A DNA stretch of 64,000 nucleotides from Dyadobacter tibetensis Y620-1 (GTDB lineage: Bacteria; Bacteroidota; Bacteroidia; Cytophagales; Spirosomataceae): positions 1,054,001-1,118,000 of the forward strand of contig NZ_AZQN01000003.1 in assembly GCF_000566685.1 (NCBI RefSeq). The letters are read 5' to 3'. The notes under the pieces were generated by a model. It did not search any database. It worked only from the letters and a program-made list of their open reading frames with translations, and was not told where the DNA came from. The number at the start of each line of letters is the position of its first letter. Within the stretch, counting starts at the first letter, position 1. Shown here in pieces: positions 42,612 to 60,461 of this stretch. The translations under genes were made by a program, and so were the position numbers.

Positions 42612-44120
42612 TTACGGAAAAGATAGCCAATTACTATTTTCCTGATAATCGACCGTGAATTGGCCTAGCTTAGGAGGGTGATAGGCGCAGGCAACTTTTG
42701 CGAGCTCTACATGAAGTAGAGATTGAGCCGACTCGATGAGTTGGCTATTATAGCCAAGATTGTTTAATTCCATCAGATATTCTGAAGCTACCACCTTCGC
42801 TATCATTTTCCCGAGAAGAATCATCTTTCTTTGTGGTACTTCGGCGTAGAGTGTAAAATCGAGCTCATTCTTGAAAAAGCCGGACGCCTTGCCAGTTCGG
42901 GGAGCCTGGCTTAAATATTCGAAGACGTTAAGGATTTTTCTAAACTTCATTTCTCTTAATGCTGTTTCTGCAATTTGGTTATAAAGCAACTCATTTGGGC
43001 CTTCAAATATCTGGAAGGGCCTACTATCCAAAATACTCATGCCTGCTTTGCTGCTGAATCGGAAACCTTTTGAACCGTTAAGCTGAAGTAATATTTGTGC
43101 GGACTCCTGCATCAGGTCGGTTATCAACGCTTTCATACTATTGGCTTCCAGTCCATGAGGAGAAGCATTTTTATCCATTCCACTAATTTTGCAGCTCCTG
43201 GTACACATGGCCGAACACAGGGTATAAGCATATTGTAATTTTGCTAGTTGGTATTGAATATTATCGTAAAGGTGTAGTGACTTGCCCCCAACTTTGCGTT
43301 GGGTACAATGCTGAATGGCTTCGTCTAAAATTCTTTTTAAAAAGCCCATAGCCATTCCAGGAAACTGGAGCCGGCTATTATGCAAAATATCCAGCATCAT
43401 TTTAATGCCGGTACCTTTGGAAGTTAGTTTCTGCCTTTCAGGCACGACAATATCAATTTTATTAAGACCATAGGGGATCATAAAAAGTCCCAGATTGTCG
43501 TAATATTCCTGAACCTCTATACCTTGTTCCGCTTGATTACCATCACTGATAAAGAAGTCAATATCCGCTGCGAGCTCGCCCGAGGGTAGTCGTTTTCGAG
43601 AAGCAACCAGCCAATAGTCAGCCAAGCCGGTGGGGCCTTGCCAATGTTTCATCCCCTTAATATGGTAGCCATTATTCCCATAGCTGTGACTGGTTTTCAG
43701 GTTTAAGGCGTCACTTCCATAATCGGGTTCTGTCAACATAAGGCCACCCATATGGCTACTTTCCAAAAAATTTTTGAATACACTTTTTTGTATATCCTTA
43801 TCGGCATACTTTGCGACAGGTTGTAGGAAAAGAAACATATTGATCCCTAACAGCAGGGAAAGAGGCAGCGACTCGTAAGCGGTTGTAGATAGCAAGCCCA
43901 TCGATTCTCTGATACAGCCCCCTCTGCCACCATACTGTTTTGGGATACTTACGGATAGTGGTTTTTTGGAGAGGATTTTTTTGATCACCTCTGGGCTAAC
44001 TCCGTGGGGACGATCCCGGTATTCTTTTTGCAGCCAATTTTTTATCTGCTGTTGTTGCTCTTCGAGAAAGGTCGAATACGGTATGGTAGTACTTTCCGAG
44101 CTGTAGGTATTCATTTTCAA
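42612..44120 (-). CDS. Acyl-CoA dehydrogenase-family flavoenzyme of the PKS operon
   Basis: FAD-dependent dehydrogenase of 502 residues, introducing an alpha,beta double bond into an acyl-thioester. Family signs: N-terminal helical part with VSIPKQYGGRGG, the mid-domain flavin motif GLMLTEPDYGSDALNLKT, and the C-terminal base motif IFEGPNELLYNQIAE, in which E373 matches the catalytic Glu of MCAD-type enzymes (YEGT). The C-terminal ~120 residues extend beyond the usual ~380-residue core. It is the last gene of the minus-strand operon, 18 bp after the AT-ER stop codon. In natural-product clusters such enzymes oxidise starter, extender or carrier-bound chains; the substrate here is unknown. Given the inactive-looking DH of the PKS, it could supply unsaturation in trans (inference). 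Confidence 0.87.
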   Translation of the reverse strand: MKMNTYSSESTTIPYSTFLEEQQQQIKNWLQKEYRDRPHGVSPEVIKKILSKKPLSVSIPKQYGGRGGCIRESMGLLSTTAYESLPLSLLLGINMFLFLQPVAKYADKDIQKSVFKNFLESSHMGGLMLTEPDYGSDALNLKTSHSYGNNGYHIKGMKHWQGPTGLADYWLVASRKRLPSGELAADIDFFISDGNQAEQGIEVQEYYDNLGLFMIPYGLNKIDIVVPERQKLTSKGTGIKMMLDILHNSRLQFPGMAMGFLKRILDEAIQHCTQRKVGGKSLHLYDNIQYQLAKLQYAYTLCSAMCTRSCKISGMDKNASPHGLEANSMKALITDLMQESAQILLQLNGSKGFRFSSKAGMSILDSRPFQIFEGPNELLYNQIAETALREMKFRKILNVFEYLSQAPRTGKASGFFKNELDFTLYAEVPQRKMILLGKMIAKVVASEYLMELNNLGYNSQLIESAQSLLHVELAKVACAYHPPKLGQFTVDYQENSNWLSFP

Positions 44121-44138
44121 GAGATATATTTGTATAAG

Positions 44139-46406
44139 TTAACGACAAAAACTTTCGAAGCGTCTTTTTAATAGGAGGGCTGTTTCGGTCATGAGTTCTT
44201 CAGCAATGATATCGACATGTCGATTGGGCCAATCTTGAAGTTTACTGCCCTTAACCCATTGGTTAAAGGCCCCCATGGCAGGTCCACAATGAACTTGATA
44301 GTCTACCAGCTGCTGGGGGTTTCCTTCGAGTGCCAGTGCATTGCTATGTCCAAAATACCAGCGAAAAAGATAAGCTAACTTCTGCTTAGGATTTTTTTCT
44401 GCCACCGCAATTTGTTCCGCTGAATAGTAATCTTTTACATCATCATAGACTTGTTCGAAACTCCGTTTGAAATACCGATCTTCTAACTGTATACGGGTTT
44501 GTTCGTCAATTTCTTCGAGGGCATTAAATCGTTTATAAAGGTCATATAATTTGTTTGCTCGTCCCGAGAAAAGAGTTCCTTTCTTAAGTACCTGAACTTT
44601 AGCCCCGATTTCGAACATATCCCCAGCGGGAGCATAGTCGGTATCTTGGATATTAACCTGTTGTAAAAGATCCTTTACAGCAGGACTTATACCCGACTCA
44701 ACCGTACATTGGTTAATGGATCCCGTGAGAATAAAGTCGGCACCCAGTACAAAGGCTGCGGCCGCAGCTTCCGGTGTTCCAATTCCACCGGCTGCGCCTA
44801 CCCGGATTTTTTTTTGGTAGCAGTATTGTTCCATGATTTCATCGCGCAACCGCATTATGGTAGGAACCAGAGCAAAGGCTACGCCCCGGTCTGTATGACC
44901 TCCAGAGTCTGCCTCTACACAAATATCATCGGCCATGGGTATATTAGTGGCCAGAGAAGCTTGTTCAGCTGTGATTTGTTGGTTCTGGAGTAGCTTTTTA
45001 ATGAGTTTTTCAGGGGCTGGTTTCATAAATGCTGCAGCTACCTCTGGTCTGGAAACTTTCGCCATTATCCGGGTTGGAATAACAACCTGCCCTTGGGTAT
45101 TTTTTTTAATACCAGAAAGGCGTAATCTGACCAATGAGATGCTAATTTGCATATAAGCTGAGGCTTCAATATTACGGATTTGACGATCTAAAAATAAGTC
45201 AACCAGTTCCTCTTCCATAGACCCATTCAACAGGTTCATTCCAAAACTTTCTCCCTGGTCCAATTGATCCTGGATATAGGTTATGGCAGCCGCTATGGCT
45301 GGCAATTTTAATCCGCCTGTGCCAAAATAGGCCATCAATTTTGCCCGGGCCATCTTTACAACTAATTCCTTAGATGCAATGCCATGTACCATTGCTCCAC
45401 AGGCATAGGCATACTTTACCCGGTAATCGGCTAGATACTCGGCAGATCCTAAGTCCTGGGGCCGTATGCACCGATCGCTCGATGTGGTTGCTGAGGTGCC
45501 TGAATTAGTTCGAATGAGTACATGGTTGCAAAGATCTTTAAAACTATTCTCAGACATCGGGATAGGTTCTTTTTGAATGTGAATGAGCATTTTTTTAAGT
45601 ACGTCTCCTGGGCCTAATTCTATAAATTCTGTCCCCTTATATGATAGTAAGTAGCTTATACTTTCATACCATCGAACGGGTTGGCTTATCTGCTTTTCCA
45701 ATAGATCTGGAATATATTGCATACCGTATGGTCTTGCTGTAACATTAGAAATCACCTGAATTTTTAAGGAATTATATGAGAAGCTTTTGGCAAAGTCCCC
45801 AAATTCTTTTGCGGCTTCTACCATATACCGGGAGTGAAATGCTCCGCTAACATTTAACGGGAAATATAGTTTCAGACCCTGATCTTCAAATACCTGCTGG
45901 GCCGCCTGTATCTGGTCGCTGGGACCGGTAATTACGATTTGATGTGAAGAATTATAATTGGCAATGTCAATCTCTGTAAAATGATTTTTCTCGAGGATTT
46001 TACGCACCTCATTCATCCGCATGCCCAATAGGGCAGCCATGCCTCCACTGGCCTTTTCCGACATAAGCTCTGCCCGCTTCTTTACTAATTGGAGTCCCGT
46101 TTCGAACGAAAATCCTCCTGCTGCAAATAAGGCTACATATTCTCCGAAACTATGGCCTAGCAAACAGTCCGGCATGCTGGCTTGTTCTATATGTTTTAAA
46201 TAGTCCATAACACTTACCACGTATAATGCCGGTTGGGTATACTGCGTATTGTTGAGGAGCCGATGGGGGTCATGTATGCATAAATCTTGTAGATCGTAAC
46301 CCATGATGTGGTTGGCAGTTTCCATGAGTTCGGGAAATAAGGGGAACAAATCCTGTCCCATACCTCTGAATTGAGACCCTTGTCCAGGGAACATACAGAC
46401 TTTCAT
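44139..46406 (-). CDS. Trans-acting acyltransferase / PfaD-type enoylreductase fusion (AT-ER)
   Basis: Bifunctional protein of 755 residues, typical of trans-AT polyketide synthases (PksE/BaeE-like organisation). Residues ~1-290: malonyl-CoA:ACP transacylase with FPGQGSQ, nucleophile S86 in GHSFGEY and H191 in GAFHSR, a malonyl-type signature. Residues ~320-755: FMN-dependent nitronate-monooxygenase-like enoylreductase of the PfaD family (SAEYLADYRVKYAYACGAMV, GAAGGIGTPEAAAAAFVLGA, LTGSINQCTVESG, C-terminal WYFGHSN and PAMGAFNQWVKGS). It would load malonyl onto the carrier domains of the PKS, which has no AT of its own, and reduce enoyl intermediates. Its ATG overlaps the stop of the preceding 198-residue gene (ATGA at 46403-46406), implying translational coupling. 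Identity is secure. Confidence 0.95.
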   Translation of the reverse strand: MKVCMFPGQGSQFRGMGQDLFPLFPELMETANHIMGYDLQDLCIHDPHRLLNNTQYTQPALYVVSVMDYLKHIEQASMPDCLLGHSFGEYVALFAAGGFSFETGLQLVKKRAELMSEKASGGMAALLGMRMNEVRKILEKNHFTEIDIANYNSSHQIVITGPSDQIQAAQQVFEDQGLKLYFPLNVSGAFHSRYMVEAAKEFGDFAKSFSYNSLKIQVISNVTARPYGMQYIPDLLEKQISQPVRWYESISYLLSYKGTEFIELGPGDVLKKMLIHIQKEPIPMSENSFKDLCNHVLIRTNSGTSATTSSDRCIRPQDLGSAEYLADYRVKYAYACGAMVHGIASKELVVKMARAKLMAYFGTGGLKLPAIAAAITYIQDQLDQGESFGMNLLNGSMEEELVDLFLDRQIRNIEASAYMQISISLVRLRLSGIKKNTQGQVVIPTRIMAKVSRPEVAAAFMKPAPEKLIKKLLQNQQITAEQASLATNIPMADDICVEADSGGHTDRGVAFALVPTIMRLRDEIMEQYCYQKKIRVGAAGGIGTPEAAAAAFVLGADFILTGSINQCTVESGISPAVKDLLQQVNIQDTDYAPAGDMFEIGAKVQVLKKGTLFSGRANKLYDLYKRFNALEEIDEQTRIQLEDRYFKRSFEQVYDDVKDYYSAEQIAVAEKNPKQKLAYLFRWYFGHSNALALEGNPQQLVDYQVHCGPAMGAFNQWVKGSKLQDWPNRHVDIIAEELMTETALLLKRRFESFCR

Positions 46407-46999
46407 AATTTGAAGCTTAGTTTATAGGAACAAATGCTGTTTTCAGATATTGACTCTATTTCCATACAAATTTGATATGGAAGATGAAGTGCATCGTTGA
46501 TGCCCTGGATATACGCATCTATGGGAGGGCTGATATATTGTTCGATCCCCAACTCTCTGCAGATACGATGATAGCGGTCAATTCCTGTAAATCGTATTTC
46601 AACCAGATGCTCTTCATACTTCAAAAATTGAAAGATGTATTCGGGGCTACTACGAAAAATAGATGCAATGGAAATTTTCGCTATACCCTTCGCATTTCGT
46701 TCGATGGAAGGCTTAAGAATTAGCATTTGCTTTGCAGTCTTCTGGCCTAAAGCATAGGTAGTAGCCTTAGAGAGTTCTTCCATGCATTCATAGCCAAACT
46801 TTTCTCCTGCGGCTTTAAGCATTAATCCATAGAAGGAAGAGGTGGCATTTGATAACTTAAAAACTACTTCAGAAAAGCTTTCAGGGAAGAAATCAGCAAT
46901 AATCTCTTCGGCAGGCATATGGGGTAAATATTGATCCTCTCCTCTATAGCTAGAGGCGAGTGCATAAATAGGAGGCGTAGGGGTAAGGGGAGTGTTCAT
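46403..46999 (-). CDS. Unknown 198-residue protein coupled to the AT-ER gene
   Basis: Soluble protein of 198 residues, no signal peptide or membrane helix. Segment LMLKAAGEKFGYECMEELSK with YALGQKTAKQM followed by FLKYEEHLVEIRFTG and YHRICRELGI faintly recalls the L-2-amino-thiazoline-4-carboxylate hydrolase-like family, which also has a helical N-part and a mixed C-part; I cannot confirm this by eye. It begins 27 bp after the PKS stop codon and ends in a 4-bp overlap with the AT-ER start, so it is firmly inside the operon and probably acts on the polyketide or its carrier. Function unassigned. Confidence 0.8.
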   Translation of the reverse strand: MNTPLTPTPPIYALASSYRGEDQYLPHMPAEEIIADFFPESFSEVVFKLSNATSSFYGLMLKAAGEKFGYECMEELSKATTYALGQKTAKQMLILKPSIERNAKGIAKISIASIFRSSPEYIFQFLKYEEHLVEIRFTGIDRYHRICRELGIEQYISPPIDAYIQGINDALHLPYQICMEIESISENSICSYKLSFKL

Positions 47000-47026
47000 A
47001 TAAGCAGTATCGTTTAAGGATTGATC

Positions 47027-50000
47027 TTATGATAATTCATATAATGTATGGCATACTTTATTGATTTGCTGGATCACGCTCTTATCATTCATTAAGGTGA
47101 TATGATTTGGTGCAGATAATTCAATATGATGAAATTGAGGTAGCACATTTTTCCACGCTAACCAGTATTGCTGATTATCTAAATGAAGATTTTCCGACTC
47201 ATGCAAGATGCAATAAGGGGCTAGCTTGCCGTAGAATTGTTTGTCTTTATTAGAAAAATAGTAAACATCGATTGCCTCAGGCTGTTCCATGGGTAGCACC
47301 CGGTAATCCACAAATTGGGCTGACTCTCTTACAGAGCGACCTCTTTCAATTATGGCGTTAATTTGCTCTGGGGCACTGCTCAATCCTCGGGCTTTGGCTA
47401 AGGCTGTGACATACTCTAAAAAGGATTGATCGGAAGGAAAATCGGGAATTGTGTCTCTATGGATTAGCTTGTCGGCAAGCTGCTCAGTATGCTGTAAGTT
47501 AGAGGCTCCGAGAAGCAAATTAACCGTTTGCAGTACCATGGACCTGTAGTCTATAACGAAACGATTCATGGAGCCAGCAATAAATATGGAGTCGATCATT
47601 ACGATTGAGCTTACTTGCTTTCCGAGTTTCTGAAGGTGCTTTGCCATTTCATAAGCCAAGGCCCCTCCAAGGGAGAATCCTCCAAGGTCATAGGGTCCAT
47701 CTGGCTGGGTCTGAAGTACAAGCTCGGTATAATACTGAGCCATATCTGCAATTCCCTTGAAGTGTTTTCCGTGTTTGGTCCAGGTATCGGCAACAACCGC
47801 GTAAAAGGGTCGTCGGCTGCATTCGGCAATGGAATGGTATCCTTCTATACCTCCCCCGACTGGATGTAACCAAAATATGGGCCTACCTTCAGTTTGGGCA
47901 TTAAGCTTTATGATATCCTTCGGAAGCTTTTTTGAGGGCGGGGAAGAAAGAGTAGTTTGAATATTGGCCAATGATTGCGGGTGAAGGGAGAGCAAGGCAT
48001 CGGCTGCCTCTCCGACGGTTGGGTAATCGAATAATAGTCGGTTATCTACATCCGGGATGATTTTTTTTACCTGCTGAATAAATCTACTCGTAGAGATAGA
48101 ATCGAGACCATACTGATAGAGAGGTTTGCTCTCCGCTATATCTGAGGCAGGCATATGGATAATTTCTGCCACAATCTCCTTAAGTGTTGAAACCATCTTT
48201 TCCCTTTCAGGATAATTTGTTGTTTTGGGTGGAATGACACTGGAATCAATTGCCTCATCAACTCTCCCATTAGTCGAATCTGACGAAGGAGAAGAGCTTC
48301 CTTTTTTAGGAAGTGGACTTGCCCAGTAGGGCTTTCGCTCAAAGGGGTAAGTCGGAAGACTTATTCTACGCGGTATATCATTAGAGTATAATGCACTCCA
48401 TTCTATTTCGGCACCATTTACCCATAATTGGGCCAAATTTGGTAATTGAGATGATGCATATAACTCCGGATAGTCTATTTGTCGGTAATTTTGAGGGGAC
48501 TTTTTGTATGAGGTGTCAAACTGATTATACCAGACCTGAGACTCAATATGTCCATTGATAAACTGTTTAAGAAGTTGGGCTAACTCTGATATATTCCGAA
48601 CCAAAAGTGCTACTCTTTCTTTCATATGTGCCCTCCCGACCTGTAGAGTATAGCTCATTGAGTACAAATCATTCGCAGAGATCTGACCTTTACTGATGCT
48701 TTCTATAAAATTCTTCGCATATTGTATCAAGCTTGCCTTACTCTGCCCTGAGAGCAACATTAGTACTGGCTGAGCTGTGGTGTAGGAGAGGTTTTGAGGC
48801 TTATAGCTTTTATATTCTTCTAATAAAACGTGACCATTTACTCCGCCGAACCCGAAGGCACTGACCCCTGCTCGCCTTGGCCACTCCTGACCCTTATCGT
48901 TCTTTCTGACTTTCCAGTCTTGTGTATGTTGGACAACATAAAAGGGGCTATTCTCTAATTTGAGATGAGGGTTTATAGACTCACTAAAAAGACTTTTAGG
49001 GAGTTTTTTATGTTTTAATTGCATCAAAACCTTGAGCACTCCAGCCATACCCGCTCCAAACTCCAGGTGACCAATATTTGTTTTGACAGATCCGATCGCA
49101 CAGGTGCCTGCTTCCATGACGGGCTTATCATGGTTTTGATAAAGCCTGTTAAATGCGTTTTTTAAGGCTGTCACCTCCACAGGATCTCCTATCAAGGTTC
49201 CTGGTCCATGTGTTTCAACATAGCTAACTGATCGGGGGTCAATATCTAGGGGTAAATATGTATCGTAAATTAGGTCGGCTTGAGCACGAGGATTAGGAGA
49301 AGTGAGCGAATTGGCCCGCCCACCATGGTTTTCATTGGTATTTCTGATCAGCCCATAAACATGGTCCCCGGCTTCCTCCGCCGCTTTTAAGCTTTTGAGC
49401 ATGATAACTCCCACTCCTTCACCTCTAACATACCCGCTGGCACGATCAGAAAAAGCTCGGCTGCAACCATCATCACTTAATGCACCGAAGTGATAGAGGC
49501 TTTCGTAAATTTCAGGGGTTAATAAAGTATTGACTCCTGCGGCTAATGCGATGTCGCATCGGCCACTTCTAATAGATTCAACAGCTCGGTGAATGGCTAC
49601 CAATGAACTGGAACATGCGGTTTCTATGGCTTGACTTGGCCCTTTAAAGTCTAAGAAGTAGCTAATGCGATTAGGACCCATCGATGATACCATGCCCATT
49701 AGAGAATGTCCTTCAATTGGTGTTTGAGACTGTGCCAACACCCTGTTGTATTCGTAGCAGGAGATGGCAGCAAATATTCCTGTATTGCTTCCGGCTAAGT
49801 TATTAGGATTGTACCCAGCATCTTCTATGGCCTTCCAGATATGCATCATCATAAGCCGCTGTTGAGGATCCATTTGTAGGGCTTCGGCCGGAGAAATATT
49901 AAAGAAGAGTGGGTCGAAGGTGCTCATGTTTTCTATGAATCCGCCTAATCTGGCCTTCACTGCCGGATAGTCGCGGAAATCCCACCGCTCTTTAGGTATT

Positions 50001-53000
50001 TCTGTAACACAATGCCTTTCACTGACCAGATTTTCCCAAAATTCATGTATATCCTTGGCCATTGGGAGCTCGGCACTTACTCCGATAACGGCAATAGGTT
50101 CTAGGGTTTTGAGGTTATCCGAAACGTTACGGCTATTTTTATATGCTGATTCCTGTCTTAATAGATGAACCTTGGAGTACTTGGATTTTGCCGAGTCAGA
50201 TGTTATTCCCTGCTCGACATCGGTTAACTGACTACTTTCACTCCTTTTTTCTGTCTGGTGGGAAAGGCAGTTTTGGTCAAATTCTAATATTCCACCAGTT
50301 TGCCGTATTGATATTGCAGCTTCGCTGCCATTTCTATGAAGACTTCCCAGTTCCATGGAGCTGGAATGGATATTACAAATTGAATCAGATGGCAGTGTAC
50401 CAATTGTGGCCTCGACTTTTTTCTTTTGCCGGGAGCTTTCCCTAGCCTCTTGCTGCTCGGTTACCTTTTGGACTGTGTTGGGTGAGTCCTTAATTTCAAT
50501 GCCTAATCGGTACACCTTCAAACGAAATGGGTAGGTTGGAAGGCTAATTTTCTTTCTGTTGGCATTGATCGAAAGTAATTTCCAGTTTACCCGGTATCCC
50601 TGTACCCAATCTTGGATAAGGCTAAGGAGTTCAACCTGACTGCCTGTTTGGGCTATAGGCGGTGTATATGGCTGTTTTGACTTACTGAGGTCGGCCGCCC
50701 CCAGTATAAAATCAGGGTTACCCTTAGCATGTGTTTTAAAATATTGCAATTTCTCATGCAGTTCCGATATATTCGAGGCCAAAAATCCGAGGCGGTAGGG
50801 CATGGCATTCCTTCCGGTCTGTAAGGTATAGGCCATATCGGCCAACTGCTCTTGTCCTGCCTGCCCGGAGTCAATAAAGTTCAATAACAGGTCAGTTTGC
50901 TGTTGAAGTTGTTCAGGGCTTTGTGCTGAGAATACAAATATTTTGGGTTGCGCTTCTCTGCTGTAGTATTCATCAGGTGTCTGATTTTTTGGGATGTATT
51001 CCTCTATGATGACATGGGCGTTCACTCCTCCAAACCCAAAGGCACTCACCCCGGCCCGTCGGGGGCTAGCTCCTCCAGTTTCGGTGGTCACGGCCTTCCA
51101 TTCTTGATTTTTCCGTACTAAATAAAAGGGGGTTCCTTCTGTCTTAATATAAGGACTAATAGTGTTACAATGTAGATTCTTGATAAGGGTCTTATGTTTC
51201 AATTGTAATAACACCTTTATAACCCCAGCCACACCAGAGGCATATTCAGTATGTCCAATATGACTTTTGATACTTCCTAGTCCACAATAGTTTTGTTTAG
51301 TACTGTGTAGCGTACTCAATTCGGTAAATGCTGTTTTAAGGGCATCTACTTCTATAGGATCTCCTAACTTAGTCCCAGTACCATGTGTTTCGATAAAATT
51401 GACAGTAGAAGGATCAATTCCAGCTTTTTTATAGGCTTTTTTAATGAGATTGATTTGAGCCCGCATACTGGGGGCCGTCAACGCATTAGCACGCCCGCCA
51501 TGATTATCGGCAGTAGAACGAATGATTCCATATATATGATCTCCATCCGCTTCTGCTTGTTTTAAATCTTTTAATAGGACCATGCCCACTCCTTCAGCGC
51601 GTACAAACCCATCCGCAGTATCTGAAAATGTTTTACATCTGCCTTCCTTACTGAGCATACCAGCGTGGCCCATGCGGATAAAAGAAGATTTCGATTGAAG
51701 GGCATTTACGCCACCTGCTATGGCCATTGTTGAGTCGCCGGACTGAATGGACCGGACTGCCCGATGTATTGCGATTAATGAACTAGAACATGCTGTGTCC
51801 ACAGGTTCGCTGCTACCGGTAAGGTCCAGAAAGTAGCTAAAGCGATTGGGACCCATACAGGAAATAATATTGGTCTGATTGAATGAAGGGTTCGCATGTT
51901 TCTGCCTACCAATTAACTCGCTGAATTCGTGGCTTGCCATTCCTACAAAAATGGCCGTATCGCTACCTTTTAAATCCTGCGGGGCGTAGCCGGCATCTTC
52001 TATGACTTTCCATGCATATAGCATAAGGAGTCTGTGTTGAGGATCCATGTCGATAGCCTCCTGTTCGCTGATGTTAAAGAACTCTGGATCAAAATCGTAA
52101 AGATTCCGAATCAATCCGGCCCATTGGCTTGCTTTGCTATCATTCTCCGGGTTCATATCTTGACGTATCCATTGATCTTCAGGGAGAGGGACAATGCAAT
52201 CTTTACCTTCTAGTAAATTCTCCCAAAACTCCTCCAGCGTATCGGCTTTTGGGAATTTTCCACTCATTCCAATAATCGCCACGGGGCGTGAATCCTCTGG
52301 CAAATAATTTTTCGCAGAATGAATCTGAACAAGTTCTTTTTCTGGGGTGAGCGGGCAAGAGTTTGGAGCAGACTTTTTGTTCTCGTTCCACTCCTTTATT
52401 AAGGCTTCCAAATGCTCACGCTGCAGGTAGCCAGCTAATTTGAATAATGATTCACATTCAAAAAAAATGGTAGGAGCCAGATCGAGATCCCATATTTCGT
52501 TTAATTGTATGGCAAATTCGGTATATCGAATCGAGTCATATCCATACTCGTCCATACCGGCATCGAGCCGGATATGTTCGGTGGGTATTTCTAGTAAAGT
52601 GGATGCGGTTTGAATAAGGATTTCGAAAATATGCTCTTCTAATGCATGTGGTGTATCGGGTTTTAATACGTTATTATAACCTGTGCGTGGAGCGAGATTA
52701 ATGCTGTTAGCACGGTCACTTTTTGAACCAAGGAGTTCAGAAATTTGCGGACTTTCAGTGGCCTCCTGATCATGGTCTGAATGAGCGATAGTGCTATCTT
52801 TTTCCGGCAGTACCACGCTGTCTTGAAGATAGGACGCCAATGCCGTAAGAGTGCTATATTCAAAGAAAATGATTGGGGTCAGATCTACTCCGAAAGCTTC
52901 ATTAATCCGGACGGCAAACTCTGTATAACGAATGCTATCGAAACTATATTCATCGATTCCTGCTTCAGGGTCAATAAAGTCGATCGGGATTTCCAGAAGA

Positions 53001-56000
53001 TCGGACGCGAACTGTTGGAGTCGAAAGAGTATAGCCTCATGAGTGCGGGGAGAATTTTCACCAATAGGCGTCAAGGCTTCGGGTTGCACTGTGGCGTCGG
53101 CATGGCTGGACTGCTCAGGAGCAGATGCGGGCTTTGGAATAGTAGGGAGGAAATCTTCATAGTCTCCGAGAATTTCACTGCGATTCTGGATTATCTTTGG
53201 AGCTGTAGTTTCCGAAGTGGAGTTTGTTTCATCAAAAATATGCGAAGCCAAGCTACTCAGAGTTGCAAATTGGAAAAATATTGTGGGACTTAAGCTTAAC
53301 TCGAACTGTTCATTCAAAATCATGGCAAACTCGGCATAAAGAATAGAGTCAAAGCCATATTCTTCAAAAGAAGTGTCCAAATCGATATGTTCAGCAGGGA
53401 CTTTGAGTACGTCAGCGGCAAGGGTCAGCAGGGTTTTGTTAATATTTTCCATAGGGGTAGCATTTATGTCCTGAGAATAGGTCGTTTCTGTGGGAATGGA
53501 GAAGGGATCCAAAAAAAGATCGGAATTGGAGAGCTCCACCTCCCAGTTTATTCGGCGTTTTAAGTTTTCAGTCTGACCGTACATTACGAGGCACTGCGCG
53601 GAGGGACCTGACAACATATGGCTGAAGGCCCTAATTCCAATATCATTTGGCATGGGAACCATGCCTGACATATGTTTTAGATTTTTAATTCCCCCAGGAC
53701 TTAAGGTTAATCCTCCTTCCTTCCAAAATGGCCAGTTAATGGAGATGGTGTTACCCTGACGGGCCCCCGCTTTCGCTAATCTATTCCGGTAAAAAGCGAA
53801 TTCATCCATAAAGGAATTGGCCCAGGCATAGTCGGTCTGACCAATATTTCCAATTACCGATGTAGTGGAGGAAAATAAGGAAAGAAAGTCCAGAGGGCGA
53901 TTCCCTATGGCCTGATCCAGATTTACGAGGCCCTTTAGCTTTGGTGCTAGTACCTGCTCAATCTGGCCCTTGGTTTTTTTTATTAAAAGACTATCCTGAA
54001 TAACTGCTGCAGAATGGATTACCCCGGTAAGCTTTCCATAATTCAAATAAATTTCATCTATAAGTTTTTGAACCGCATCTGGGTCCGATATATCCGTGGG
54101 ATGGTAAAGTACCCGGGCTCCGGAGGATGTTAATGTAGACAACACATCTCTTTTATTTGTTTCCAGTTCAGATCGCCCGGTCAAAATTAGGGTAACCCTC
54201 TCAGTTTGACGGATTGCCTCCCTGCAGAAAAGCTGACCTATTCCTCCCATTCCTCCAGTAATAAGGTATACCCCATTCTCCTGCCATGGATTGCGTACAG
54301 GTAAGGTGGGTTTCCACTGTGCCCAATTTTTGATCCATCGATGGTGTTGTCTATAACTTATATGCCGATCGTAATCTGCCTGTTGATTTTCATCCAGCAC
54401 CCTTTTTAATGATTTTTCTTCGGCTGGGGACCATTCTATTACCTGAAAGTTGATTTTATTGTACTCTGTCTGGACTGCTTTCAACATTCCAGCAAGGGAC
54501 GAGGCCAGACGTTCAATTCCAGAGTTTGGAACCACAACTTGTATTAGTAGGGTATCTTTTAGCTGCAATACCCATTCTTGTATATAAGCGATACATTTAA
54601 TTCCTATCTCAAATATTTGATCTTCAGGTGCAATTGAAGAATGTTGGATAATTATCACCTCATGATCTCTAATTTCTTCCTTCAGATTATACCCCTTCCA
54701 TGTCCCCCCAGGGCAAAGTACTATTTTGGAGCTAGCTGCAGCATATACATGTCTTACAGGGGGGGCAGTTTTCCAATAAGAACCCAAGTATAAAGTGTCG
54801 GCCTGAGAGGATGAATTTAAAGTTTCATGGTCATCAGCAATGTTTTTTATGACAAGAATGAGATGTGCACATACCAGCCCGGAATCATTACAAAGATCAA
54901 TTTCTAAGACGTTATTTACCCCCGAACTGTTCTTTTGAACCGCCATAATTGCCCACATTTTCGATTTAAAAGCGCTGAAAAATGTGATGGATTTTAGGGT
55001 AGGATAGGTTATCCGGGTATTCAGCTGTATGGTACTGATTTTATAATGCTGCCAGAGCATCCCTAGTTGAAATGCTGTCTCCAAAATATCTGGATATATC
55101 TTAAAGCCTTGGTATGCGGCTTCTAGCGTTTGAACGCCGGCAATGAATTGGTTATTGAGAATGGAAATCTCTTGAATGCTCCGATAATGAGGCCCGTAAG
55201 CAAAGCCAGCTTTTTCTAATAGTTGATAAGTTTGTTCATGTGAATAGCCTGCCTGTGCCTGCAGAATTTGTACTGAGTCAAGGTTTTGTCTTGCCCTTTT
55301 GGTTTTTCTATCTTCTCTAGCCCTACAGGAAAATACTGGCAATCCATGTACTTGATCCACCACAGTCATTCTATCAGTAACCCCTACATCAGAGATGCAT
55401 CGAAGGGTGTGAGGTTTGCTCTTAGGTAAATCTTTTAGTGAGTTGGGATATTCGAAGTGGTCAAATGTTAAGGAAATCCGTGGCCCGCCTGGTCTTACAG
55501 ATTCTAATAATAAGGATTCCCGTACCATTTCAAGAAGGTAGCCATGAGGGATATCACTGCTACAGGTTATGAACGAATCAAGGTTGGAACAATAGGGGGG
55601 ATTTAGGGGGGGAGTTCCCTCTAGGACTATCTTTCCGGTATCATCCTTTGTTTTTTGTATAAATGGATGGACTAGTTGTTTTTCCTCTTCTGATACCCTG
55701 CTAAACCAATAGGAAGTGGGGGTAAAGGGGTAGTGGGGTAAGCCTAGTTTTTTTGGGTGAATGCCCTCAAATATTCGGTCCCAATCCCAGTTAAAGCCAT
55801 TTGAATAAAGGTGGGAAAGCTTGTTGATAATCGGTAAATAATTCTTAACAAGCGCCTCAGGAGTTTCGATACCAATCAGTGGGTCTTCCATGAGGTGGTT
55901 TTTTGTGGAATCTCTATTTTCTTGCCTTTGATTTAATTCATCGAGTGTCGACTGCAGTTGTTTTAATAAGTCATTAAGGTTTCTAACGACAAGTGATATA

Positions 56001-57517
56001 CGTTTATTAAAATGGTCTCTTCCCATTAATAATGTATAACTCAAATCGAGCAGATTAATAGGTTCTTCAGGGCGTTTTAGATAGGCCAATAAATCTGATA
56101 TTCTTTGATGAAGAGAAGGCCAAGTTTTAGCGGATAGGCAAATAATATAACTCGGTAAGTCGGGTGATTTTTCACGAGTAGGTTGGACGTACTCTTCTAT
56201 CACCAAGTGCGCATTGGTGCCACCAAATCCGAATGAACTTATTCCCGCCCTACGGGGTATCTCCGTGCCATCCTGGTCTTTAAGCCTTTTCCATGTTTTC
56301 AAATGGTCCACTATATAAAATGGGCTTCCGTTTAAGGAGATTTTTTTATTGGGTTGGGTGAAATGAACGAGTTTCGGCAAAGTCTGGTGCTTCATGGCTA
56401 GGAGAACCTTTATTAAGCCAGCCACCGCCGCGGCAGGCTCCAGATGCCCGATATTCGCTTTTACGGAACCTAAACCACAGTAAGCCGAAGAAGCTAGAGG
56501 AGGGTTGCTATAGGCATCAAAGGCCTTCAGGAGTCCCTCGAACTCGATGGGATCTCCTTTAGGGGTACCGGTACCGTGCGCTTCTATATAACCAATGGTT
56601 TGCGGCTGGATGGCAGCACGATCGAGGGCTTTTTTGATTACCTCCGCCTGGGAATCGGGATTAGGATAGGTAATCGTATAGGTTTTCCCACAATGGTTTA
56701 CGGCACTGCCCCTTATTATTCCGTAGATTCTATCACCATCTTTCTCTGCTTGTTGAAGGGATTTTAATAAAACTAATCCTGCTCCTTCTCCCCTTACAAA
56801 CCCATTGGCTTCGTCATCGAAAGTCTTACTGGTTCCAGTTGGTGATAACATGCCTGCCTTTGCCAGAGCTGTATACCTGGAGGGGGATAATAATAACCCT
56901 ACTCCCCCTGCCAAGGCCATGCTACAGTCGCCCAGATGGATGGCCTGGGCGGCCATATGTATGGCCTGAGCTGAACTAGAACAGGCAGTATCTACCGGTA
57001 CGCTGGGTCCGTTGAGATTATAAAAATAGGAGATCCTATTGGGGATTATCGCAGCAGAAGTGCCTGTTCCGTGATGAGCTTCAATGCTTCCAAAGCGCTC
57101 CACAAGTTCTTTATAATCATGGTTAAATACTCCCAAGAAAACAGCAGTGTCGGTCCCAGCTAATTGAGAGGGACGATAGGCGGCATCTTCCATACAGTGC
57201 CAGGCCAGTTCTAGCATTATCCGCTGCTGCGGATCCATTAATTCCGCTTCTTTGCCTGAAATGTTGAAAAAGGAAGCATCAAAATGGCTGATGTCTTCAA
57301 TAAACCCTCCCCATTTAGTTAGCGTATTTGGGCCGCCCTGTATGCTATGGCTATGCTCTTCCCAATTCCATCGGTCCGCAGGAACTTCGGTAATACTAGC
57401 CTTAGCATCAGAAAGGTTTTTCCAGAATTCATTATAATTTTTGGCAGATGGCACCCGGCAAGCCATACCTATGATCGCAATTGGGTCGTATCGATCATTG
57501 ATTATTTGTGACTTCAT
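47027..57517 (-). CDS. Trans-AT polyketide synthase: KS-DH*-KR-ACP-ACP-ACP-KS-KS-ACP-TE
   Basis: Megasynthase of 3496 residues. KS1 (1-430): C179, H314, H358. A DH-like double-hotdog (about 590-900) retains the GFAYGPHYRSI block, but the catalytic His of the L.DH motif is S648 and the Asp of HP.LLD is E813, so it is probably inactive. KR (about 1080-1260): TGGMGGIG, S/Y/N set in QTDYAWANSFMD. Three tandem ACPs with phosphopantetheine serines S1391 (GFDSI), S1528 (SFDSI) and S1662 (GYDSI), separated by acidic linkers. KS2: C1910, H2045, H2089, followed by an LPTYPF linker and ~150 uncommitted residues without ACP. KS3: C2635, H2770 (in ETHGPGT), H2817. ACP4: S3140 (GLDSI). Thioesterase: S3282 (GGFSLGG), D3309, H3472. 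There is no AT domain anywhere; the AT-ER gene supplies it. Product unknown; partial reduction is implied. Confidence 0.93.
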   Translation of the reverse strand: MKSQIINDRYDPIAIIGMACRVPSAKNYNEFWKNLSDAKASITEVPADRWNWEEHSHSIQGGPNTLTKWGGFIEDISHFDASFFNISGKEAELMDPQQRIMLELAWHCMEDAAYRPSQLAGTDTAVFLGVFNHDYKELVERFGSIEAHHGTGTSAAIIPNRISYFYNLNGPSVPVDTACSSSAQAIHMAAQAIHLGDCSMALAGGVGLLLSPSRYTALAKAGMLSPTGTSKTFDDEANGFVRGEGAGLVLLKSLQQAEKDGDRIYGIIRGSAVNHCGKTYTITYPNPDSQAEVIKKALDRAAIQPQTIGYIEAHGTGTPKGDPIEFEGLLKAFDAYSNPPLASSAYCGLGSVKANIGHLEPAAAVAGLIKVLLAMKHQTLPKLVHFTQPNKKISLNGSPFYIVDHLKTWKRLKDQDGTEIPRRAGISSFGFGGTNAHLVIEEYVQPTREKSPDLPSYIICLSAKTWPSLHQRISDLLAYLKRPEEPINLLDLSYTLLMGRDHFNKRISLVVRNLNDLLKQLQSTLDELNQRQENRDSTKNHLMEDPLIGIETPEALVKNYLPIINKLSHLYSNGFNWDWDRIFEGIHPKKLGLPHYPFTPTSYWFSRVSEEEKQLVHPFIQKTKDDTGKIVLEGTPPLNPPYCSNLDSFITCSSDIPHGYLLEMVRESLLLESVRPGGPRISLTFDHFEYPNSLKDLPKSKPHTLRCISDVGVTDRMTVVDQVHGLPVFSCRAREDRKTKRARQNLDSVQILQAQAGYSHEQTYQLLEKAGFAYGPHYRSIQEISILNNQFIAGVQTLEAAYQGFKIYPDILETAFQLGMLWQHYKISTIQLNTRITYPTLKSITFFSAFKSKMWAIMAVQKNSSGVNNVLEIDLCNDSGLVCAHLILVIKNIADDHETLNSSSQADTLYLGSYWKTAPPVRHVYAAASSKIVLCPGGTWKGYNLKEEIRDHEVIIIQHSSIAPEDQIFEIGIKCIAYIQEWVLQLKDTLLIQVVVPNSGIERLASSLAGMLKAVQTEYNKINFQVIEWSPAEEKSLKRVLDENQQADYDRHISYRQHHRWIKNWAQWKPTLPVRNPWQENGVYLITGGMGGIGQLFCREAIRQTERVTLILTGRSELETNKRDVLSTLTSSGARVLYHPTDISDPDAVQKLIDEIYLNYGKLTGVIHSAAVIQDSLLIKKTKGQIEQVLAPKLKGLVNLDQAIGNRPLDFLSLFSSTTSVIGNIGQTDYAWANSFMDEFAFYRNRLAKAGARQGNTISINWPFWKEGGLTLSPGGIKNLKHMSGMVPMPNDIGIRAFSHMLSGPSAQCLVMYGQTENLKRRINWEVELSNSDLFLDPFSIPTETTYSQDINATPMENINKTLLTLAADVLKVPAEHIDLDTSFEEYGFDSILYAEFAMILNEQFELSLSPTIFFQFATLSSLASHIFDETNSTSETTAPKIIQNRSEILGDYEDFLPTIPKPASAPEQSSHADATVQPEALTPIGENSPRTHEAILFRLQQFASDLLEIPIDFIDPEAGIDEYSFDSIRYTEFAVRINEAFGVDLTPIIFFEYSTLTALASYLQDSVVLPEKDSTIAHSDHDQEATESPQISELLGSKSDRANSINLAPRTGYNNVLKPDTPHALEEHIFEILIQTASTLLEIPTEHIRLDAGMDEYGYDSIRYTEFAIQLNEIWDLDLAPTIFFECESLFKLAGYLQREHLEALIKEWNENKKSAPNSCPLTPEKELVQIHSAKNYLPEDSRPVAIIGMSGKFPKADTLEEFWENLLEGKDCIVPLPEDQWIRQDMNPENDSKASQWAGLIRNLYDFDPEFFNISEQEAIDMDPQHRLLMLYAWKVIEDAGYAPQDLKGSDTAIFVGMASHEFSELIGRQKHANPSFNQTNIISCMGPNRFSYFLDLTGSSEPVDTACSSSLIAIHRAVRSIQSGDSTMAIAGGVNALQSKSSFIRMGHAGMLSKEGRCKTFSDTADGFVRAEGVGMVLLKDLKQAEADGDHIYGIIRSTADNHGGRANALTAPSMRAQINLIKKAYKKAGIDPSTVNFIETHGTGTKLGDPIEVDALKTAFTELSTLHSTKQNYCGLGSIKSHIGHTEYASGVAGVIKVLLQLKHKTLIKNLHCNTISPYIKTEGTPFYLVRKNQEWKAVTTETGGASPRRAGVSAFGFGGVNAHVIIEEYIPKNQTPDEYYSREAQPKIFVFSAQSPEQLQQQTDLLLNFIDSGQAGQEQLADMAYTLQTGRNAMPYRLGFLASNISELHEKLQYFKTHAKGNPDFILGAADLSKSKQPYTPPIAQTGSQVELLSLIQDWVQGYRVNWKLLSINANRKKISLPTYPFRLKVYRLGIEIKDSPNTVQKVTEQQEARESSRQKKKVEATIGTLPSDSICNIHSSSMELGSLHRNGSEAAISIRQTGGILEFDQNCLSHQTEKRSESSQLTDVEQGITSDSAKSKYSKVHLLRQESAYKNSRNVSDNLKTLEPIAVIGVSAELPMAKDIHEFWENLVSERHCVTEIPKERWDFRDYPAVKARLGGFIENMSTFDPLFFNISPAEALQMDPQQRLMMMHIWKAIEDAGYNPNNLAGSNTGIFAAISCYEYNRVLAQSQTPIEGHSLMGMVSSMGPNRISYFLDFKGPSQAIETACSSSLVAIHRAVESIRSGRCDIALAAGVNTLLTPEIYESLYHFGALSDDGCSRAFSDRASGYVRGEGVGVIMLKSLKAAEEAGDHVYGLIRNTNENHGGRANSLTSPNPRAQADLIYDTYLPLDIDPRSVSYVETHGPGTLIGDPVEVTALKNAFNRLYQNHDKPVMEAGTCAIGSVKTNIGHLEFGAGMAGVLKVLMQLKHKKLPKSLFSESINPHLKLENSPFYVVQHTQDWKVRKNDKGQEWPRRAGVSAFGFGGVNGHVLLEEYKSYKPQNLSYTTAQPVLMLLSGQSKASLIQYAKNFIESISKGQISANDLYSMSYTLQVGRAHMKERVALLVRNISELAQLLKQFINGHIESQVWYNQFDTSYKKSPQNYRQIDYPELYASSQLPNLAQLWVNGAEIEWSALYSNDIPRRISLPTYPFERKPYWASPLPKKGSSSPSSDSTNGRVDEAIDSSVIPPKTTNYPEREKMVSTLKEIVAEIIHMPASDIAESKPLYQYGLDSISTSRFIQQVKKIIPDVDNRLLFDYPTVGEAADALLSLHPQSLANIQTTLSSPPSKKLPKDIIKLNAQTEGRPIFWLHPVGGGIEGYHSIAECSRRPFYAVVADTWTKHGKHFKGIADMAQYYTELVLQTQPDGPYDLGGFSLGGALAYEMAKHLQKLGKQVSSIVMIDSIFIAGSMNRFVIDYRSMVLQTVNLLLGASNLQHTEQLADKLIHRDTIPDFPSDQSFLEYVTALAKARGLSSAPEQINAIIERGRSVRESAQFVDYRVLPMEQPEAIDVYYFSNKDKQFYGKLAPYCILHESENLHLDNQQYWLAWKNVLPQFHHIELSAPNHITLMNDKSVIQQINKVCHTLYELS

Positions 57518-57580
57518 ACCTTATTGCTTTACGTGAATGTATTTTGAAAAGGTCATTTATTTTCCATTTAGAAAATTTTG

Positions 57581-58252
57581 TTATTTATCCCATTCCATAT
57601 TCAAGATTTTAAGGTTCTGGAATTCCACAGGAAACAGGGTGGCAATATGCCCTGTGTACCCTTCGCCTATATTAATGGGAAATGTCTGCCAAATCTGGTT
57701 CTCTAGTATAGATCGACGATTATTGACTTCTATCTCATTCATGTTGATGTAAAGCCCCTTGCCATTGGCTTTAATAATGGCTTCTTTTTCAGTCCAATAA
57801 TTATAGAATGCCTGCAATTGATTATTAGCTTGATCAATTTTTCTCCTTTCTTGCTCTGTCATTTGGTTTAGAAATCGTTCTAATGAGATGGACTGCATAT
57901 ATTCAATGTCTAGTCCAATCCGACTATTCAGGTTTAGGGCACAGCATACACAGGTTCTTGAATGAGAAATATTGAAATCAAAATCCAGATCTGCAAAATC
58001 TAGATATGGACGTCGGAACAAGGTATATCGTAGCCCTGTTAATTTATAATTTTTGGTTATTTCAAAACCTTTTAACCCTTCCTGAAGCAACACTTTACCT
58101 AATAAAGAAGCCCAGCGATCTTCTTCTTTATGGTAATGAAGAATCCTTACATGCAGATTTTCAGGGATTTTCCGCAAAAGTTTTTGAAAGAGGCTATACT
58201 TTCCTAAGTAAGAGTGAAAGTGTGTGTATAATATTAATATCAAGGCATTCAA
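57581..58252 (-). CDS. Sfp-type 4'-phosphopantetheinyl transferase
   Basis: Transfers the phosphopantetheine arm from CoA to the serine of carrier domains, turning the PKS ACPs into holo form. 223 residues, the usual size for the Sfp class. Motifs: FNISHSRTCVCCAL, the Mg-binding RIGLDIEYM with D115 and E117, and WTEKEAIIKANGKGL with W153, K156 and E157. It sits 63 bp upstream of the PKS and 43 bp downstream of the SDR on the same strand, so it is probably dedicated to this operon. Confidence 0.92.
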   Translation of the reverse strand: MNALILILYTHFHSYLGKYSLFQKLLRKIPENLHVRILHYHKEEDRWASLLGKVLLQEGLKGFEITKNYKLTGLRYTLFRRPYLDFADLDFDFNISHSRTCVCCALNLNSRIGLDIEYMQSISLERFLNQMTEQERRKIDQANNQLQAFYNYWTEKEAIIKANGKGLYINMNEIEVNNRRSILENQIWQTFPINIGEGYTGHIATLFPVEFQNLKILNMEWDK

Positions 58253-58295
58253 CTTTTAGTAATTGCAGGCTGACATTTCTTTATAAAGGTTTCGA

Positions 58296-59045
58296 TTATC
58301 TTGCCAGATATCCTCCGTCGATTGCATAGTAGGAACCTGTCACAAATGAGGATTTATCGGATGCCAACCAGAGTACTAACTCCGCAATCTCTTCCGGCTG
58401 CCCCAGCCGTTCCATGGGTTGGGCGCTGCCCAAAACTTTACGCGTTTCTTCTGGAAGTACAGCAAGTATGGGCGTTTCTACATAAGCAGGTCCTACTGCA
58501 TTGATACGGATACCATTTGTGGCATTTTCCAAGGCTGCACTCTTGGTCAGCCCGTTAACGCCATGTTTGGAGGCTATATAGCTTGATAGTCCTTTTTCTC
58601 CTGTTTGGCCTAATACTGATGACATGTTAATGATCGAGCAAGGTCCTCCGTGTTGGAGCATAACCTTTAACTGATATTTTAAACAATAAAATACCCCGTT
58701 CAAATTAGCGCTAATAACCTTCTCCCAGTTTTCTTCCGGATAATCGGCCACTGGTGCCAGGGGTTCAACTAATCCGGCGTTATTGCAGGCAATATCCAGT
58801 CGTCCATATATTTTTACTGTCTCTTCTATCAGCTGTTTACATTGTAGTGAATCTGACATTTCTGCGGCCAGAAAAGTAGCGGTACCTCCAGCCTCTTTTA
58901 TTTTTTTTACGACGCTATTTCCTTTTTCATGATTTCGGCCCGATACGACCACTTTGGCGCCTTGTGCTGCAAATAATATTGCAATGGACTCTCCAATCCC
59001 AGAAGTAGCACCAGTTACTAGGGCAATTTTGTTTTGTAATAGCAT
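58296..59045 (-). CDS. Short-chain dehydrogenase/reductase (SDR), first gene of the PKS operon
   Basis: NAD(P)-dependent oxidoreductase of 249 residues. Start chosen at 59045 (MLLQNKIALVTGATSGIGE), where the Rossmann fold begins; a longer ORF from 59117 adds 24 residues before the fold. Classical SDR motifs: TGATSGIG cofactor loop, CNNAGL, and catalytic S/Y156/K160 (SSYIASKHG); C-term SYYAIDGGYLAR. Similar to FabG and to tailoring ketoreductases. The PKS has its own KR, so this enzyme may act on a carrier-bound intermediate or on the released product (inference). It leads the minus-strand operon; a 400-bp spacer separates it from the AraC-family gene. Confidence 0.9.
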   Translation of the reverse strand: MLLQNKIALVTGATSGIGESIAILFAAQGAKVVVSGRNHEKGNSVVKKIKEAGGTATFLAAEMSDSLQCKQLIEETVKIYGRLDIACNNAGLVEPLAPVADYPEENWEKVISANLNGVFYCLKYQLKVMLQHGGPCSIINMSSVLGQTGEKGLSSYIASKHGVNGLTKSAALENATNGIRINAVGPAYVETPILAVLPEETRKVLGSAQPMERLGQPEEIAELVLWLASDKSSFVTGSYYAIDGGYLAR

Positions 59046-59444
59046 AAATAGGTTACGTTTATAAGTGGGTAAGGTTTGGTGAATAAGAAAACGGAACAAT
59101 GGATTATTGAAGTCCATTAATTGATATTTCTTAATCGTCCAAATCTCGAGATTCTATCAAGATGCTGCTTTACAAAATGGACATAATTCTTAACAAATTA
59201 GATATTATGTCAAAATAATATTACACAGATTTAAATTTGGTTACTAAATTTTGGTTCCTATATTAATATTATAAATTTAGGAGGATGGCATGTTTCGCCG
59301 AAAAACAAACTTATGGATCTCCGCTTCAATAATGGTCTGAATACTACCTAACATATTTAGAAGCCAGCCTATGACTCAATGTCCTTACTATTGCTAATTC
59401 AAAGCCTCTAGTGCCATTCTTTATGAATTCGAAAAGGGATTAGG
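59046..59444. promoter_or_regulatory. Probable promoter region of the PKS operon
   Basis: The only sizeable spacer upstream of the SDR-PPTase-PKS-AT-ER-ACAD series, so the operon promoter must lie here or further up. On the minus strand TTGACA (plus 59208-59213) is followed by an AT-rich stretch, but no confident -7/-10 box can be picked. No inverted repeat of note. Confidence 0.35.
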
Positions 59445-60461
59445 CTAATTCGTAGTGCGGTCCTTAAGGATGGCACTTGGGGATTTGTGGTAATACTCCT
59501 TGAATGCTCTGGTAAATTGAGATAGGTTTTTGTAGCCCAGTTGCAAGGAAAGTTGGGTTAGATTATGAGGTCTCTGATGATTTAAGGCAGAGAGTGCCTC
59601 TTCCATCCTGATTTTGGTGTAGTAATCTGTAAAGGAATGGCCGGTAACACTTTTGAAGATATTTTTAAACTTTGTCGTACTCATGTTACAATGACTAGAA
59701 GCTTCCATGATGGTGAATTTTTGGTCGAGACGATTTTTTATCAATTCACATATTTCTCTAATTTTCAGCTGATCCTCCGATCGTAATCCAAAAGCCGGTG
59801 CTGAGGCTGAGAAAAATGCTTGAAGAACTTCCTCTATTAGTTCCAGGACCAGATGGGTGCTGATCTGTTGTTGACTAAATTCTTTATGCTGGTCGGTCCT
59901 CTGGATTTTAAGTAATTTCTGAAACAAATAGAGAATGTGACTGCCCATCGGCTTTAGTGAATAAAAATCAGCATTTTGAAGAATATCCTCATAACCTTTC
60001 GAGGGACAGCCAAGGCCCATTTTAGATATCATTTCTAGCAGGTAGTACCGTCCAACCTTGATTTCAATACGAGTACCAGACATTTCGCTTTGACATCCAA
60101 AGATCGATTGAACCGTGCCGGTTGAAAGACCCCAGTACTGATTTTCCTTACAGCAAATAAAGTTTTCTCTACTGTATATTTGGTAACAGTCCTGTCTACA
60201 GCTAATGAGGTCGATTATGTAAAGGTCATTTAAGGGAAGGGCATTGCGATGTATTAAAATTGGTGTTTTGGACTGAATATTTGTCGTAGTAAGCGTTAGA
60301 TTGTCCGTAATGAGCTCGTTTCGACTAATACTGAATTCATCTGTTTTCCAGCTTCGGGTAAGCTCTATCTTGTCGGTATTTTCTCGTCCTTTATGCTCGG
60401 TGGTCGAACAGTAATGATAATTGGATTTTTCACTTAACACTGGATAGTATTTGATTTCCAT
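59445..60461 (-). CDS. AraC-family transcriptional regulator
   Basis: Cytoplasmic regulator of 338 residues. The C-terminal ~100 residues form the double-HTH AraC domain (KIREICELIKNRLDQKF, TIMEASSHCNMSTTKFKNIF, LSLQLGYKNLSQFTRAFKEY). The N-terminal ~230 residues form a ligand or dimerisation domain with a PchR-like layout (GTRIEIKVGRYYLLEMISKM) but no recognised effector. Same strand as the PKS operon and just upstream of it, so a pathway-specific regulator is the natural guess. It has a long 5' spacer containing tandem duplications. Confidence 0.88.
   Translation of the reverse strand: MEIKYYPVLSEKSNYHYCSTTEHKGRENTDKIELTRSWKTDEFSISRNELITDNLTLTTTNIQSKTPILIHRNALPLNDLYIIDLISCRQDCYQIYSRENFICCKENQYWGLSTGTVQSIFGCQSEMSGTRIEIKVGRYYLLEMISKMGLGCPSKGYEDILQNADFYSLKPMGSHILYLFQKLLKIQRTDQHKEFSQQQISTHLVLELIEEVLQAFFSASAPAFGLRSEDQLKIREICELIKNRLDQKFTIMEASSHCNMSTTKFKNIFKSVTGHSFTDYYTKIRMEEALSALNHQRPHNLTQLSLQLGYKNLSQFTRAFKEYYHKSPSAILKDRTTN

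Follow-up and report, generated by a model that had tools for sequence, protein, structure and literature searches.

An orphan trans-AT polyketide synthase cluster in Dyadobacter tibetensis, probably a derived version of the six-gene cassette shared with Taibaiella

The window analyzed here is a stretch of 64,000 nucleotides (G000:C3:1054001-1118000) from the genome of Dyadobacter tibetensis Y620-1, which comprises 5,313,422 bases in 33 contigs. In the passages of the genome report that bear on the assembly, the strain is described as originating from glacial ice and its draft as 33 contigs of 5,313,963 bp with 43.4% GC (PMC4148984). Six tightly packed open reading frames occupy positions 42612..59045 of the minus strand, as an earlier, sequence-only reading had noted, and all six are open. 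In the order of transcription they encode a short-chain dehydrogenase/reductase (SDR), a phosphopantetheinyl transferase (PPTase), a polyketide synthase (PKS), a 198-residue protein, a fusion of an acyltransferase (AT) with an enoylreductase (ER), and an acyl-CoA dehydrogenase-like flavoenzyme (ACAD). The intergenic gaps measure 43, 63, 27 and 24 bases for SDR-PPTase, PPTase-PKS, PKS-198 aa and AT-ER/ACAD, while the genes for the 198-residue protein and AT-ER overlap by 4 bases. The PKS gene alone spans 10.5 kb and the six genes together about 16.4 kb. All coordinates given below for the cluster refer to the minus strand.

The first gene of the operon encodes a FabG-like SDR oxidoreductase (58296..59045; PF13561, E 5e-63). 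Its longest reading frame starts at 59117, but the start at 59045 proposed earlier better fits the 250-residue SDR of T. koreensis. The protein is 62-63% identical to the SDRs in the same position in two Taibaiella clusters described below. The PPTase (57581..58252; PF01648, E 2e-15) is 36% and 34% identical to the PPTases adjoining those clusters. In the AT-ER protein (44139..46406), residues 1-285 form the AT half, which matches TIGR00128 with 300.6 bits (cut-off 260.9) and carries GHSFG and GAFHS motifs, and residues 315-748 match TIGR02814 (PfaD) with 646.5 bits (cut-off 449.25), identifying a PfaD-type, trans-acting ER. The last gene encodes the ACAD (42612..44114; PF00441, E 3e-21, with PF02770 and PF02771), which has a C-terminal extension and whose longest reading frame starts with TTG at 44120. 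The Glu of its IFEGPN segment, which we take to be the catalytic residue, is common to both Taibaiella orthologues.

Scans of the locus for sigma-70 promoters and terminators returned matches at chance level only. An AraC-type regulator (59445-60461) is encoded upstream of the operon, and a regulator-propeller histidine kinase (Reg_prop plus HATPase; 39081-42179) directly downstream, with another of the same type at 26033-29146. Positions 31996-38937 encode a secreted-type protein of 2313 residues in which DUF7948, an Ig-like domain and a Por secretion tail are recognized.

The PKS (47027..57517; 3496 residues) has the domain order KS-DH*-KR-ACP-ACP-ACP-KS-KS-ACP-TE. Pfam and NCBIfam models bear out the domain content read from the letters: three ketosynthases (KS), one ketoreductase (KR), four acyl carrier proteins (ACP), one thioesterase (TE) and no AT. 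KS1 (residues 11-440; 56198..57487) has Cys178, His314 and His358, and the Cys-His-His residues are likewise retained in KS2 (residues 1744-2175; 50993..52288) and KS3 (residues 2474-2905; 48803..50098), the last of which reads HGPGT instead of HGTGT. The KR (residues about 1081-1300; 53618..54277; PF08659, E 2e-48) keeps in alignment the nucleotide-binding and Ser/Tyr/Asn motif residues, whose meaning in ketoreductases is general knowledge. Three of the four ACPs lie in tandem before KS2 (residues 1356-1432, 1493-1570 and 1627-1700; 52418..53452), and one follows KS3 (ACP4, residues 3106-3180; 47978..48202). The protein ends in a type I TE (residues about 3190-3490; 47048..47950; PF00975, E 7e-24) with a GFSLGG motif, and no loading domain was found in it.

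Two parts of this protein depart from what its domain order would otherwise suggest. The active-site motif of PKS dehydratases consists of an HxxxGxxxxP segment and an Asp in the second half of the domain. The dehydratase-like region (DH*, residues about 621-940; 54698..55657) lacks the HxxxGxxxxP segment and has Glu in place of the Asp, so that the earlier reading was right to mark this domain as doubtful. The region matches PF14765 with 31.5 bits but does not match PF21089, which is found in both Taibaiella proteins, and it does not classify as a functional PKS dehydratase. A structural reading of DH* was dropped because the predicted model, with a pLDDT of 44.1 and block means of 52-75 for residues about 141-280 alone, was unusable. 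The other departure lies between KS2 and KS3, where a polar linker of 128 residues (50099..50482) holds no ACP. Even with a very permissive threshold, the ACP profile likewise revealed no hidden carrier in residues 2201-2480.

The evidence supports a trans-AT PKS built on one megasynthase. A cis AT, which the earlier reading had named as grounds for refutation, was looked for, and PF00698 gives no match in the 3496-residue protein at E values up to 0.01. For all three KS domains the best single-KS match among PDB entries is PksJ (4na1), with 533, 599 and 582 bits, while the best cis-AT entries listed for KS1 are mycocerosic acid synthase, CurL and DEBS, with 396, 394 and 374 bits. We take PksJ to belong to the trans-AT system for bacillaene and the other three to be cis-AT enzymes. 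The locus therefore combines an AT-less modular PKS, an AT encoded with it and trans-AT-like KS domains, and judged by its sequence it is a trans-AT PKS cluster. Beta-branching was considered as a reason for the tandem ACPs and rejected. The HMG-CoA synthase model PF08540 has no match in the genome, while as a control it does find matches in 4 of 14 genomes; beta-branching is thus unlikely, and the tandem ACPs are no pointer to it.

A scan of genome contigs with AT-ER as the query yielded 35 loci, some of them short, and at two of these both the 198-residue protein and the ACAD are present. These are the only orthologous clusters found, and both belong to Taibaiella: all six genes recur in T. 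koreensis (L065/L066, NZ_QVNU01000001.1) and T. soli (L068, NZ_QKTW01000022.1). The same scan with the 198-residue protein as the query produced no match. The order SDR-PKS-198aa-ATER-ACAD is shared with the window and a PPTase gene lies nearby, but in Taibaiella that gene adjoins the cluster on the other strand, whereas in the window it sits inside the operon. AT-ER is 62-63% and ACAD 52-53% identical to the orthologues, and the PKSs share 45-46% identity across alignments of 3276 and 3229 residues. According to NCBI, Taibaiella belongs to the Chitinophagales and the window genome to the Cytophagales (Spirosomataceae), so the clusters occur in different orders. When window reading frames of at least 120 residues were compared by blastp with both Taibaiella flanks, the six cluster genes matched, and all other matches were weak and confined to T. 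koreensis: four window frames to one 216-residue protein (26-29% identity) and two to parts of 65 and 75 residues of a 578-residue protein (31-34%).

The Taibaiella PKSs have the order KS-DH-KR-ACP2-KS-ACP2-KS-ACP-TE, with both Pfam DH models matched and five ACPs in each. The sequence-only reading had held that the window order matches no known assembly line. This no longer stands with respect to Taibaiella, whose lines are one-to-one orthologues, yet the exact order seen in the window does differ. Module 1 has three ACPs in the window and two in Taibaiella, the KS2-KS3 interval holds two ACPs in Taibaiella and only the linker in the window, and the DH active-site motif is intact in Taibaiella but lost in the window. 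In alignment, the T. koreensis segment DHVFNGRKILP corresponds to a different, shorter window segment without that histidine, and its HPGYMDAALQ to YPDILETAFQ. The window order thus resembles a Taibaiella line that lacks two ACPs and a functioning DH and has an extra ACP in module 1, and the adjacent KS2 and KS3 and the inactive DH seem to reflect erosion of a conserved cassette. The direction of these ACP changes is inferred by parsimony.

Divergence is uneven along the protein. Between the window and T. koreensis, identity is 66% for KS1, 60% for KS2, 63% for KS3, 47% for KR, 43% for TE and 19% for DH. Measured against both Taibaiella proteins, the DH is 19-24% and the KS domains 58-66% identical, compared with 54% and 82-89% between the two Taibaiella. 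The DH is the most diverged part of the PKS, yet not the sole fast one: in the stretch before KR, window and Taibaiella are 30% identical where the two Taibaiella share 59%, and for ACP4 the figures are 29-32%, with 32% for T. koreensis, and 79%. A tree was built from 42 KS domains, 12 of them from the window, the second cluster described below and Taibaiella and the rest from 25 of the 35 AT-ER loci; domains shorter than 390 residues were dropped, and the tree contains no cis-AT outgroup and so does not serve as a test of trans-AT lineage. In it KS1, KS2 and KS3 each pair with their Taibaiella counterpart (support 100/100, 100/98 and 100/100), which indicates that the modules are orthologous. 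The window end branches measure 0.31 for KS1, 0.62 for KS2 and 0.56 for KS3, and the last two modules thus changed faster in the window lineage, which is compatible with relaxed constraint as well as with a change of role. A tree of the ACPs places window ACP2 and ACP3 (52% identical) nearest each other without strong support and leaves the origin of the third ACP unplaced.

The 198-residue protein (46403..46999) is predicted to adopt a Bet3/V4R-type ligand-binding fold. The predicted model has the fold of the V4R/Bet3 ligand-binding superfamily, although its identity to the Bet3/TRAPP, MopR/PoxR and H-NOX-fold proteins among the matches listed is only 4-12%. A Pfam scan of 16 family members at E values up to 1 found no match to a V4R/Bet3 sequence family; the sole match was one weak hit to PF14196 (ATC hydrolase, E 0.053). 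The family is also represented by a single match per genome in 34 genomes of one further genus (g52, including G304 and G358), where the copy in G1193 is broken. A TetR-OEP-HlyD-MFS efflux operon adjoins the family gene in 14 of the 16 g52 loci examined (among L060, L062 and L106-L119). Plasmid records yielded no relative of the protein. From its predicted fold, the protein probably binds a hydrophobic intermediate or product.

The same genome holds a second trans-AT cluster (G000:C5:209196-226412; L003:3197-18942 and L004:2-1412). Its PKS of 4170 residues reads MT-ACP-KS-DH-KR-ACP-KS-DH-KR-ACP-KS-ACP from profile matches and sequence, Pfam counting three KS, two KR, two DH, four ACP and one methyltransferase, and its DH domains match both DH models. 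The two clusters have in common an AT-ER fusion (42% identical), a PPTase and the 198-residue protein, whose paralogue here is 34-35% identical. They differ in the TE, which is separate in the second cluster and inside the PKS in the window. In the stretches compared, blastp found no relative of the ACAD in the second cluster, and the window SDR matched only the PKS there. Elsewhere in the window, frames 12529-15357 (942 residues) and 15345-16952 (535 residues) overlap at their ends and are each 57-58% identical to a 994-residue protein beside the second cluster (L004:3766-6750); frames 9798-11144 and 21507-22574 match that protein more weakly (about 43% over ~180 residues).

PfaD-type ERs occur in none of the 47 other genomes of the genus (E up to 1e-20), while the window genome has two. 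Across the order, 15 of 390 genomes, the window genome included, have a PfaD match at E up to 1e-80, and of the 17 matches 12 belong to frames only 531-570 residues long, too short for an AT-ER fusion. Among the remaining AT-ER fusions, those in G920:C4 and G872:C1 have neither a 198-residue protein nor an ACAD within the 32 kb around them; at a third place, G920:C3, AT-ER is split over two frames. A profile search of Flavobacterium reichenbachii and F. circumlabens (L035, L037) shows AT-ER beside a PKS with the order MT-ACP-KS-DH-KR-ACP-KS-ACP, which resembles the start of the second cluster and in which the second KS has diverged strongly (branch 3.38). Among plasmid records, 706 match PKS residues 1720 to the end, all below 60% identity (20 of the 706 listed). 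A foreign base composition was rejected, GC being 43.1% in the cluster and 41.9% in the window, without contrast. Horizontal gain still fits the patchy distribution. By term search, the word 'polyketide' does not occur in either of the papers on the D. tibetensis genome (PMC6680632, PMC4148984), and no description of the cluster was met in the titles and abstract openings searched or in passages of PMC9248904 and PMC7930024, a scope that leaves subscription papers and MIBiG outside.

We consider it likely that the locus encodes an orphan trans-AT polyketide pathway that is a derived form of the six-gene cassette (SDR, PPTase, PKS, V4R-like protein, AT-ER, ACAD) held in common with Taibaiella. 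We infer every step of its chemistry from the domains. The PPTase would prime the ACPs and the stand-alone AT half would load malonyl units. KS1 would start and extend the chain, and the KR would reduce it to the beta-hydroxy stage, at which DH* presumably cannot dehydrate it. KS2 and KS3 would then extend without reduction, provided that KS2 can borrow an ACP; lacking its own, KS2 would have to use the upstream triplet or be passed over. Release by the TE would give either a short acid or a ring of the lactone/pyrone type, and SDR and ACAD would tailor the chain, so that the product may be a small, partly reduced polyketide. The Taibaiella module 1 would carry out a dehydration as well and, together with the trans-ER, could bring about full reduction. 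The window cluster has kept its trans-ER even though its PKS shows no working DH, a feature left unexplained by this scheme.

The same departures could instead mean that the cluster is decaying, its PKS having lost DH function and the module-2 carriers and making nothing although its frame is still open. With no ACP downstream of it, KS2 has no obvious means of extending a chain, and the line may therefore be non-functional; the lost DH active-site segment, the ACP-free interval between KS2 and KS3, the long KS2 and KS3 branches relative to KS1, the HGPGT of KS3 and the low identity of ACP4 to orthologues that closely resemble each other all point the same way. However, a frame of 10.5 kb runs without a stop, the five partner genes are all open and tightly spaced, and the KS catalytic residues, KR motif, TE serine and AT motifs are all present, as is a third ACP in module 1. 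Because these motifs are kept and that ACP is found in addition, altered function is more likely than decay, which we regard as unlikely but worth real weight. Assembly error would explain the missing ACPs as a collapse of short reads in a 33-contig draft, and the genome report does describe, in its assembly passages, Illumina reads and SOAPdenovo (PMC4148984). But a collapse would leave one ACP copy where the profile finds none, the reading frame is intact, and the PKS gene contains no direct repeat of at least 24 bases (seed 14). With no such repeat in the gene, this highly improbable explanation was rejected.

Two further readings take the line to be active but would have it work differently. 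Tandem ACPs together with a PfaD-type ER are reminiscent of PUFA synthases, and the window has both, which suggests an iterative, lipid-type synthase in which module 1 runs through several cycles to make a fatty chain and KS2 and KS3 add unreduced units to give an alkyl pyrone or similar product. The last two modules indeed have no reducing domain before the TE, and the PfaA model TIGR02813 matches the PKS with 848.3 bits. That score nonetheless falls under the PfaA cut-off of 1010.1, by which a PUFA synthase proper was rejected; Pfam results for the cluster proteins include no FabA-like DH; and with the DH motif lost, repeated full reduction by the line alone is not expected. Iteration of this kind is decidedly unlikely. 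It is also quite unlikely, if slightly less so, that KS2 and KS3 share the upstream tandem ACPs, with KS2 elongating backwards onto the carriers of the preceding module, and that the V4R/Bet3-fold protein is an undescribed trans-acting partner of trans-AT PKSs holding or cyclizing the hydrophobic intermediate, a reading that draws on the presence of this protein in both of the dissimilar clusters of the genome.

On the preferred reading, a derived form of the Taibaiella cassette, the window cluster is a real pathway of the trans-AT PKS type, from which some parts have apparently been lost locally. Together with the Taibaiella clusters it provides a natural experiment, in which the same megasynthase can be compared in one form that has a DH active site and module-2 ACPs and another that lacks both. 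The cluster is small enough for transfer as a whole into a laboratory host, and such work would reveal the fate of a KS deprived of its own carrier proteins, which bears on the evolutionary trimming of trans-AT lines. If the V4R-like protein turned out to work on the polyketide, the class would gain a new accessory part. New here are the Taibaiella orthologues, the predicted fold of the 198-residue protein, its paralogue in a second trans-AT cluster, its family's occurrence in g52, mostly next to efflux genes, and the lack of PfaD-type ERs in the other 47 genomes of the genus.

Trans-AT PKSs in Bacteroidetes were reportedly described by Teta et al. in 2010, and passages of a more recent study report trans-AT clusters in Chitinophaga (PMC9248904). 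The known systems share phylum and enzyme class with the window cluster. The nearest solved KS domains are those of PksJ and of the PKS bimodule 7zma, entered as 'putative polyketide synthase' and presumably a trans-AT PKS from Brevibacillus; the summed score of 7zma exceeds that of PksJ because two of its KS domains match. The bacillaene PKS is a large multi-protein system, whereas the cluster in the window has one megasynthase.
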